In this document: positions 2,727 through 4,609 of the stretch, piece after piece
Position numbering within the stretch: the first letter of the stretch is position 1
Layout of the letters: each line of letters opens with the position of its first letter
Origin: Vulcanimicrobiota bacterium
GTDB lineage: Bacteria > Vulcanimicrobiota > Xenobia > Xenobiales > JADMJV01
NCBI GenBank assembly: GCA_019637395.1
Contig: JAHBVR010000011.1
Location: 124,001-188,000, forward strand
DNA: 64,000 nt
Direction: 5' to 3'
Notes under the pieces: generated by a model
Databases searched by the model: none
Seen by the model: only the letters and a program-made list of their open reading frames with translations
What the model was told of the DNA's origin: nothing
Translations under genes and position numbers: made by a program

Positions 2727-3392
2727 ATGGCTATGTTGGAACTGATCCAGCGGCTCTTTGGACCCAAGTCCACCTGGAACGGAACCGAGCGGCGAAAATT
2801 CGTGCGCGCCCGCTGCCGTTTCGATCTGACTTTGGGCAAAAACCAGGGTATCGTCTCGGTCCGTGACATCGGCCAGGGCGGCCTGCGCCTGGAGTGCGAC
2901 CTGAGCCTGGCCCCCAAGCTCAAGGCCGGCTCACTGATAGAACTCACTCAGACGGGAGAGAGCTCGGCCAGCCAGGCCAAAGTCACCTGGCAAAAGAACA
3001 GCCGCAATTTCTGCAGGGTCGGCCTCAAGTTCATCAGCGCCATCCGGGGAACCTGGATGCAACAACACGTCGATGATATCGCCGGGCACCCCAAACAAAA
3101 GCGCCGCCACATCCGGGTGCGCACCGACTGGACAGTGGAGGGCCGCTCCGGAATCGACAGCTTTGAAGCCCGCATGCGCGACATCTCCATCACCGGCTGC
3201 CGCGTGGAAACCAAAGCCTCGCTCATTGTCGGTCAGCACTTGCGCTTAAGATTGGGCAACCTGGAAATCGCCGCCGATGTGCGCCGGATCTCCGGCCAGG
3301 GCGGCTTCAACCTCGTGGGCCTGCGTTTCGAAACGCGCGAACCGCAGACCAGTCAACTGGTGGCGTTGGTGCGTAAACTCACCGGCGGCTAG
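2727..3392 (+). CDS. Tandem PilZ-domain protein
   Basis: A 221-residue cytoplasmic protein with two PilZ-type beta-barrels. The first (about 20-110) shows ERRKFVRARCRF followed by DIGQGGLRLE; the second (about 124-215) shows KRRHIRVRTDW followed by DISITGCRVE. These correspond to the RxxxR and D/NxSxxG c-di-GMP contacts of PilZ domains. The second domain has the better D-x-S-x-x-G; in the first, Ser is replaced by Gly. It is therefore a likely c-di-GMP effector that may act on motility, pili or polysaccharide, in line with the pilin-like gene nearby. Its direct target is not visible. Confidence 0.85.
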   Translation: MAMLELIQRLFGPKSTWNGTERRKFVRARCRFDLTLGKNQGIVSVRDIGQGGLRLECDLSLAPKLKAGSLIELTQTGESSASQAKVTWQKNSRNFCRVGLKFISAIRGTWMQQHVDDIAGHPKQKRRHIRVRTDWTVEGRSGIDSFEARMRDISITGCRVETKASLIVGQHLRLRLGNLEIAADVRRISGQGGFNLVGLRFETREPQTSQLVALVRKLTGG

Positions 3393-3442
3393 TCGCCTCG
3401 AAATCAAGAGGGGCTTCTGAAAGGAGCCTGGGGGAGGTAGCT

Positions 3443-3583
3443 TTGAACCTACAAGCCAGCGAAACTCTCACGCAAAGACTGGGAGAACCCACCAACCAGG
3501 CGGCCCTTCACCCCAACGTCATGCGCGCCATGACCTTCCTGGTCGATTTCGGCCGCCAGTTGGAGCTTTCCCACTATGCATGA
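3443..3583 (+). CDS. 46-residue small protein coupled to the HypA/HypF chimera
   Basis: A TTG at 3443 preceded by GGGGGAGG (6 nt spacing) opens a 46-codon frame ending LSHYA, with its TGA at 3581-3583 overlapping the ATG (3576) of the next gene. The product is soluble with a central helix-like stretch (NVMRAMTFLVDFGRQLEL). The strong Shine-Dalgarno sequence and the coupling argue for translation. I do not recognise a family. It may be the broken tail of a former hydrogenase-operon gene. Confidence 0.45.
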   Translation: MNLQASETLTQRLGEPTNQAALHPNVMRAMTFLVDFGRQLELSHYA

Positions 3584-3968
3584 ACTCTCTATCGCCCACG
3601 CCATTGTGGAGACAGCGGTGGAAGCTCTCGAGCCGGGCCAAAAGGTCCTGCGGCTGCGCCTGCAACTGGGCGACCTGGCCGGGGTGACCGTCGAGGTGCA
3701 GGGCTCTCTCGCCCAATTGCAGGCCTTCCTCAGCCAGTTGTCCCTGCGCCTGCCCCGCCAGGCCTGCATCGAAGAGCTGCGGGAAGAGGCCCTGGAATGC
3801 CGCCCCGGTCAGGATTTCGTGATCGAATTCAGCCAGGCTCGGGGCGAGGGGGCCTTGATTCCGGCCGATCTGGCCCCCAGCCCGGACTGCCTGCGCGAAC
3901 TGGCCGACCCTCAGGACTGCCGTTATGCCTACCCCTTCCTCAACTGCACCGCCTGCGGCCCCCGTTAA
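3576..3968 (+). pseudogene. HypA-HypF chimeric remnant (hydrogenase maturation fossil)
   Basis: Residues 1-38 match the start of the nickel chaperone HypA: MHELSIAHAIVETAVEAL then VLRLRLQLGDLAGV. From about residue 39 the protein instead follows HypF. First comes the end of its acylphosphatase-like domain (TVEVQGSLAQLQAFLSQL, a region ending DFVIEFSQ), then the linker and start of the first zinc finger (PDCLRELADPQDCRYAYPF, NCTACGPR). It stops where HypF would continue into FTI. The HypA zinc domain, most of HypF and one finger cysteine (SPDC where TCPxC is usual) are missing. An in-frame deletion between adjacent hypA and hypF genes, plus truncation, explains this. Carbamoyltransferase activity is impossible. 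No hydrogenase genes are in the window. The 3' end overlaps a convergent gene by 4 bp. Confidence 0.65.
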
Positions 3969-4609
3969 TAGCGAAACTTACCGGCCTTCATCAAGCCCGC
4001 CTTCATTTTGCTATCCCAACCCGAAGGTTCGAGCTCCGACGGGGCTTTCACGATCAGCGAGCCGTCGGCTTTGTTATAAAATACCGCGATATCGCTGACC
4101 TTGGGAGTATACAGCAGGGTCACGTTGTAGACGCCATTGGCGGGGGTGTAGCCGTAGCCATCGCCAATGAATTCCACCAGCGTGCCGGCATAAGACACGA
4201 AATGCTCGGCTTTCTCCTTGGTCCACTTGACCCCGTCGTCTTTAAGATGGAGGGTAATCTTGCCCTTCAAACCCTGAGCCGTCTCGGCGGCACCATCCTG
4301 ATTGCCGCTGTTCTCCATGCCGGCGATATCCCCGATGCCGGTGCGCTTGGCATACTCGGTCAGGTAGCGGGGCCACCAGCTCATGCTGTGCAACAGCCGA
4401 TCCCGGGCCAGGTTCAGGCCGCTCCAACCGGCCTCGGAGAGCTCGAAAAGAATGTTGTTGGTCAGGTAGACCTCTTCCGACTTGTTGACCGTGTAGGCGG
4501 CCGCGCGCCGGCCGTTGGCCAGGTCCTGGGCCCGCTCGGTCGGAGTGTTCTGAGCCCAACAGGCGGCGCTCAAAGCCAGCGCCACCCCGAATCGAAGAAA
4601 CATCTTCAA
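3965..4609 (-). CDS. Secreted protein of unknown function
   Basis: A 214-residue protein with a clear Sec signal peptide (MKMFLRFGVALALSAACWAQ, cleavage likely after AxA-like CWA around residue 19). The mature part is soluble, with aromatic-rich helical sequence (SMSWWPRYLTEYAKRTG) and a lysine/aspartate-rich C-terminal half. I see no catalytic motif or known domain. It lies 75 bp downstream of glnS on the same strand and converges with the HypA/HypF remnant. Confidence 0.65.
   Translation of the reverse strand: MKMFLRFGVALALSAACWAQNTPTERAQDLANGRRAAAYTVNKSEEVYLTNNILFELSEAGWSGLNLARDRLLHSMSWWPRYLTEYAKRTGIGDIAGMENSGNQDGAAETAQGLKGKITLHLKDDGVKWTKEKAEHFVSYAGTLVEFIGDGYGYTPANGVYNVTLLYTPKVSDIAVFYNKADGSLIVKAPSELEPSGWDSKMKAGLMKAGKFRY

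Follow-up and report, generated by a model that had tools for sequence, protein, structure and literature searches.

An in-frame hypA-hypF fusion in a Vulcanimicrobiota genome as the probable young relic of a collapsed Huc-type [NiFe]-hydrogenase operon

Background

Huc-type (group 2a) [NiFe]-hydrogenase operons carry the head DUF1641-hypA-hypB-hucS-hucL. Among the maturation proteins, the metallochaperone HypA requires its zinc ribbon, and the carbamoyltransferase HypF requires its acylphosphatase loop, both zinc fingers and two transferase domains. Huc operon 2 of Parageobacillus has the order DUF1641-hypA-hypB-small subunit-large subunit-protease (PMC12976888). In the DNA analysed here (64,000 nucleotides from a Vulcanimicrobiota genome, referred to as the window), one block resembles such operons in that a putative DUF1641 remnant stands directly before hypA on one strand, but this block has only approximately 573 bp, and hypB, the subunit genes, the protease gene, most of hypF and hypC to hypE are missing from it.

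A first-pass annotation had described one small frame of the window as a HypA-HypF chimera and as the fossil of a deleted hydrogenase maturation locus between pilZ and glnS. In this study, the frame, its surroundings and the corresponding sites in related genomes were compared. In this lineage, pilZ and its convergent neighbour are separated by approximately 573 bp of hydrogenase-operon DNA, in which the first part of hypA continues in frame into hypF codons ~35-129. We consider it probable that this block remains from a Huc-type [NiFe]-hydrogenase operon, headed by DUF1641-hypA, that collapsed after its entry into the site, and that the relic is young.

Results

The chimeric frame and its two parents

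The block and its flanks contain the following features (window coordinates; G001, G002 and G003 are genomes of the same genus).

2727..3392, + strand: left flank, PilZ-domain gene (pilZ), intact and syntenic in the genus
3393..3965: whole putative hydrogenase-operon remnant, ~573 bp, each edge placed to within 1-3 nt, with no counterpart at this site in G001, G002 and G003
3443..3583, + strand: putative DUF1641 remnant, a 46-codon frame with a TTG start at 3443 and GGGAGG just 5' of it
3576..3968, + strand: chimeric frame, 130 aa, HypA residues 1 to ~37 followed by HypF 35-129
3576..3686, + strand: HypA part, HypA residues 1-37, MHE nickel motif kept, remainder and zinc ribbon gone
3681..3686, + strand: fusion point, shared Gly-Val codons GGGGTG
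3681..3965, + strand: HypF part, HypF ~35-129, comprising the latter part of the acylphosphatase-like domain together with the first zinc finger, in which Cys is changed to Ser at residue 102
3966..3968, + strand: stop codon of the chimera, derived from the flank; TAATAGCG is common to G002, where the TAA is the pilZ stop
3965..4609, - strand: right flank, convergent gene, matched by no Pfam or NCBIfam model and intact in G001 and G002

The translation of 3576-3968 is as the first-pass annotation gave it, a single continuous frame, and an SD-like GGAG lies 11 nt upstream of its ATG. The HypA-like start was recovered by Pfam PF01155, which covers residues 1-41 and scores 23.4 bits for the whole protein; residues 1-37 searched alone gave 1.3e-5 against this model. 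The chimera shares the first 37-41 residues of HypA, including the N-terminal MHE nickel site (MHELSIAH...), but the zinc ribbon, whose two CxxC pairs lie in the latter half of HypA, is absent, and the scores remain below the full-length cut-offs (PF01155, 23.4 vs 28.9 bits; TIGR00100, 13.8 vs 88.1).

The likeness of the continuation to HypF is far beyond chance. NCBIfam TIGR00143 aligned residues 36-130 with profile positions 35-129 of 741 (E 2.9e-18), Pfam zf-HYPF matched residues 103-130 (2.7e-10), and the HypF structures 3vth and 4g9i matched at 2.7e-19 and 1.9e-16, respectively (phmmer against PDB); the Pfam Acylphosphatase match was weak (residues 36-83, 0.031) and spanned profile positions 37-85 only. 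The HypF stretch 35-129 is matched over its whole length, whereas much of what defines the family is missing. The VQGVGFRP catalytic loop of the acylphosphatase domain is absent, as the match starts at HypF position 35, past the loop. The two Cys4 zinc fingers are reduced to a first finger with Ser102 in place of the first zinc ligand, the cysteine loss already noticed in the first pass, and the second finger is absent. The frame ends at position 129 of 741, before the YrdC-like and Kae1-like carbamoyl-transfer domains, which are present in the intact HypF of G005, a genome of the same family. Ser102 is also the only change (1/24) among 24 near-invariant HypF positions, which were defined among 19 intact relatives; these relatives themselves change 0 to 2 of the 24.

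The join falls at a shared Gly-Val (Gly36-Val37), as previously proposed, where both families can carry this pair (LSGV(V) in intact HypA and GV(T/F)IE in intact HypF). A single continuous frame would also be expected of a true HypA-HypF domain family. We give that reading virtually no credence, since no protein in 149 genomes of the phylum matched across both parts, all other matches there starting no earlier than query residue 27. The combination was also missing from 26 outside loci, where the sole long match (L020) was an ordinary HypF. The first-pass view that the fusion is not a protein family agrees with these searches.

A putative DUF1641 remnant before hypA

The remnant is larger (~573 bp) than the first-pass annotation described: it already begins upstream of hypA, where the coupled frame at 3443-3583 had been overlooked, as had the absence of the entire block from this site in sister species. 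The TGA stop of the 46-codon frame overlaps the hypA ATG by 8 nt (ATGCATGA), and the same 8-nt overlap with the hypA start was found in six Bacilli loci (L025-L027, L029, L035 and L037). The gene directly before hypA in those loci has a C-terminus like ...DPEVQPALNFVLNFARHLSKEL and is assigned to DUF1641 by its similarity to a gene of G005 that PF07849 recognises; the 46-codon frame ends with ...HPNVMRAMTFLVDFGRQLEL. Loci with minus-strand matches provided no further DUF1641 example beyond these six.

The curated PF07849 model gave no match in the 46-codon frame, and none in the whole genome either; therefore, a DUF1641 profile was built locally from C-termini. With this C-terminal profile, the frame was the best match in the whole six-frame window and ranked 6 of 5001 against its own shuffles. 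The resemblance of the C-terminal half, a short stretch, to DUF1641 C-termini is fairly secure. A likeness to DUF1641 N-termini (such as LLDRLNEPQTAAALH in Chloroflexus) is seen in the first 23 codons (LTQRLGEPTNQAALH); it is weak (118th of ~4,400 scored shuffles) and hints that these codons may represent the N-terminus of the same protein. If so, DUF1641 would also have undergone an internal in-frame deletion. Overall, there is fairly good support for a DUF1641 tail that immediately precedes hypA and preserves the ancestral 8-nt overlap.

Hydrogenase genes in the genome and its relatives

The window lies within a 328-kb contig of a 7.66 Mb genome (G000; 36 contigs, 97.9% complete). Searches of G000 for the NiFe hydrogenase large subunit (PF00374), HypD, a second HypA and any other HypF N-terminal part found none of them. 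The remaining weak TIGR00143 matches in G000 were confined to model positions 192-373, 593-732 and 3-55, all of which belong to parts of HypF that also occur in other families (YrdC-like, Kae1-like and acylphosphatase), and matches of the same kind occurred in G001 and G002. A functional Huc-type locus combines a large subunit with the Hyp set, of which G000 retains just the truncated HypA and HypF. An assembly or binning artefact, in which the assembler produced the chimeric join, has to be weighed in a 36-contig draft; it is very improbable here, because both flanks stand in conserved order on the 328-kb contig and meet the block without a gap or disruption, and the genome contains no second hypA or hypF copy available for mis-joining.

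In G005, one strand of contig C157 carries DUF1641-hypA-hypB-small-large-protease-(accessory genes)-hypF-hypC-hypD-hypE, with hypF ~8 kb downstream within the same operon. As hypA and hypF lie on one strand of this operon, a single in-frame deletion would make the fusion. The earlier explanation by a deletion between neighbouring genes is thus supported as to strand and operon, whereas immediate neighbours are not required. The spacing differs among relatives: G004 (same genus) keeps hypA-B-F-C-D-E and a large-subunit-like gene, with hypB between hypA and hypF, and in G019 hypF directly follows hypA. No hydrogenase or hyp genes were found in G001 and G002, and the presence of hydrogenase genes is patchy across the genus (G001-G004).

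The sole hydrogenase remnant of G003 is a hypF relic that is broken by frameshifts and lies at a different locus (C91:5191-5740, minus strand, L053), an independent second case. It is the HypF most similar to that of the chimera (56% over 79 residues) and likewise lies in a hydrogenase-less genome; it differs from the relic of the window in its locus, in spreading HypF ~2-200 over three frames and in having no hypA joined. The gene beside this relic was considered as a transposase, but no Pfam or NCBIfam support was found and this reading was abandoned.

The site in sister species

In the same-genus genomes G001 and G002, no hyp DNA was found between pilZ and the convergent neighbour, whose last sense codons are 6 nt and 2 nt apart, respectively. 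In G003, a different gene directly follows pilZ and the block is absent. BLASTN alignments to G001 and G002 end at window position ~3391 and restart at ~3966. Full hyp or hydrogenase genes at this site, for which the first pass had advised a search in relatives, were found in none of the three. Because of this absence in three sister species, an ancestral locus at the pilZ site was rejected as the simplest reading. The description as a fossil of a deleted maturation locus therefore holds for the HypA-HypF deletion fusion in a hydrogenase-less genome, and is not supported as regards its residence between pilZ and glnS.

In pilZ, the convergent neighbour and glnS, four-fold sites diverge by 0.39-0.61 from those of G002, the nearest relative, which points to a gain of the block on the own branch of the G000 lineage. 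Parsimony favours a gain over three independent exact losses. A mobile element or terminal repeats around the block were also considered and rejected, as only short internal direct and inverted repeats, and no terminal inverted pair, were present.

The convergent neighbour (3965-4609, - strand) comprises 214 codons; its homologues in G001 and G002 are 82-89% identical, none was found in G003-G006, and it represents a lineage-specific gene.

Two Ku genes were recorded in G000 (C9:44417-44968 and C31:204177-204716), so end joining is likely available to this organism.

The gained DNA could have been filler, that is, two or three separate hydrogenase-gene scraps end-joined into a double-strand break between pilZ and its neighbour, in which case the fusion would have arisen at insertion, with no operon ever having stood there. 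The ends of the block at or beside the flanking stop codons, the Ku genes and the site without hyp DNA in G001, G002 and G003 are all consistent with this scenario. We nevertheless regard it as rather unlikely: operon order and strand are kept (DUF1641-hypA-hypF), the DUF1641/hypA overlap is intact and all joins are in frame, and deletions inside one piece therefore fit better.

Discussion

Probable collapse of an acquired operon

In the preferred reading, a piece of a Huc-type operon would have entered the site between pilZ and the neighbour and then shrunk by at least two deletions. One in-frame deletion would have joined hypA codon ~37 to hypF codon ~35, removing ~8 kb if the gene order was as in G005; shorter deletions would suffice in other arrangements (hypA-hypF as in G019, or hypB between them as in G004). 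Another deletion probably fell inside DUF1641. The right end of the block would lie at hypF codon ~129, the stop codon then coming from the flank. The number and order of these deletions are inferred. The third-position GC of the block is host-like.

The features by which a pseudogene relic is recognised are present, namely truncated parents, absent partner genes and restriction to one lineage, and the slight decay (1/24 near-invariant HypF positions) suggests that the relic is young. Counted against a relic is that the two coupled frames, 46 and 130 codons long and preceded by ribosome-binding-like sites, are still open, which could also mean selection. In simulations, however, the probability that a 130-codon frame stays open was 0.57 at 0.05, 0.34 at 0.1 and 0.05 at 0.4 neutral substitutions per site; the frame of a young relic may therefore remain open by chance.

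The 130-aa product is most likely functionless and on its way out, because the HypA zinc ribbon, the acylphosphatase loop, one zinc ligand and all later HypF domains are lost and the genome has no hydrogenase left for it to serve. Alternatively, the fusion might have been put to new use as a kept small protein, perhaps together with the preceding 46-aa frame. Its open frames, the SD-like GGAG before the ATG, the retained translational coupling and the few changes at conserved positions would suit such a protein; its absence from every relative searched, the broken catalytic and metal sites of both parents and the simulated openness of a young relic at 0.05 neutral substitutions per site make it improbable. 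We would assign still less probability to a newborn gene, in which the 46 + 130 aa module produced by the collapse is translated and has been kept for some role outside hydrogenase maturation; binding of a metal or a protein by the HypA MHE start and the HypF finger would be one example. The first-pass annotation had left the choice between a very recent origin and retention for use; the single lost position and the open-frame simulation favour young age, with one fusion sequence known, and retention is less favoured.

Significance of the relic

Deletion fusions within gene relics are a familiar phenomenon, and no published description of this particular fusion was found in the part of the literature that was covered. 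What makes the case interesting is the loss in stages seen among relatives, rather than a new system. The locus provides a clean example of the loss of a trace-gas hydrogenase operon, with relatives at several stages: an intact operon in G005, a maturation set in G004, a differently broken hypF in G003, the relic of an in-frame collapse in G000 and nothing in G001 and G002. It also holds a warning for annotation: matches to HypA and HypF in an open frame preceded by an SD should not be taken as evidence of hydrogen metabolism.

Short HypA genes without the zinc-ribbon half were also observed in G004 (C135:5557-5751, L054, 77 codons) and G019 (C165:39349-39546, L011, 90 codons). Both sit in operons with an intact-looking hypF and possibly represent a short HypA variant in the phylum.
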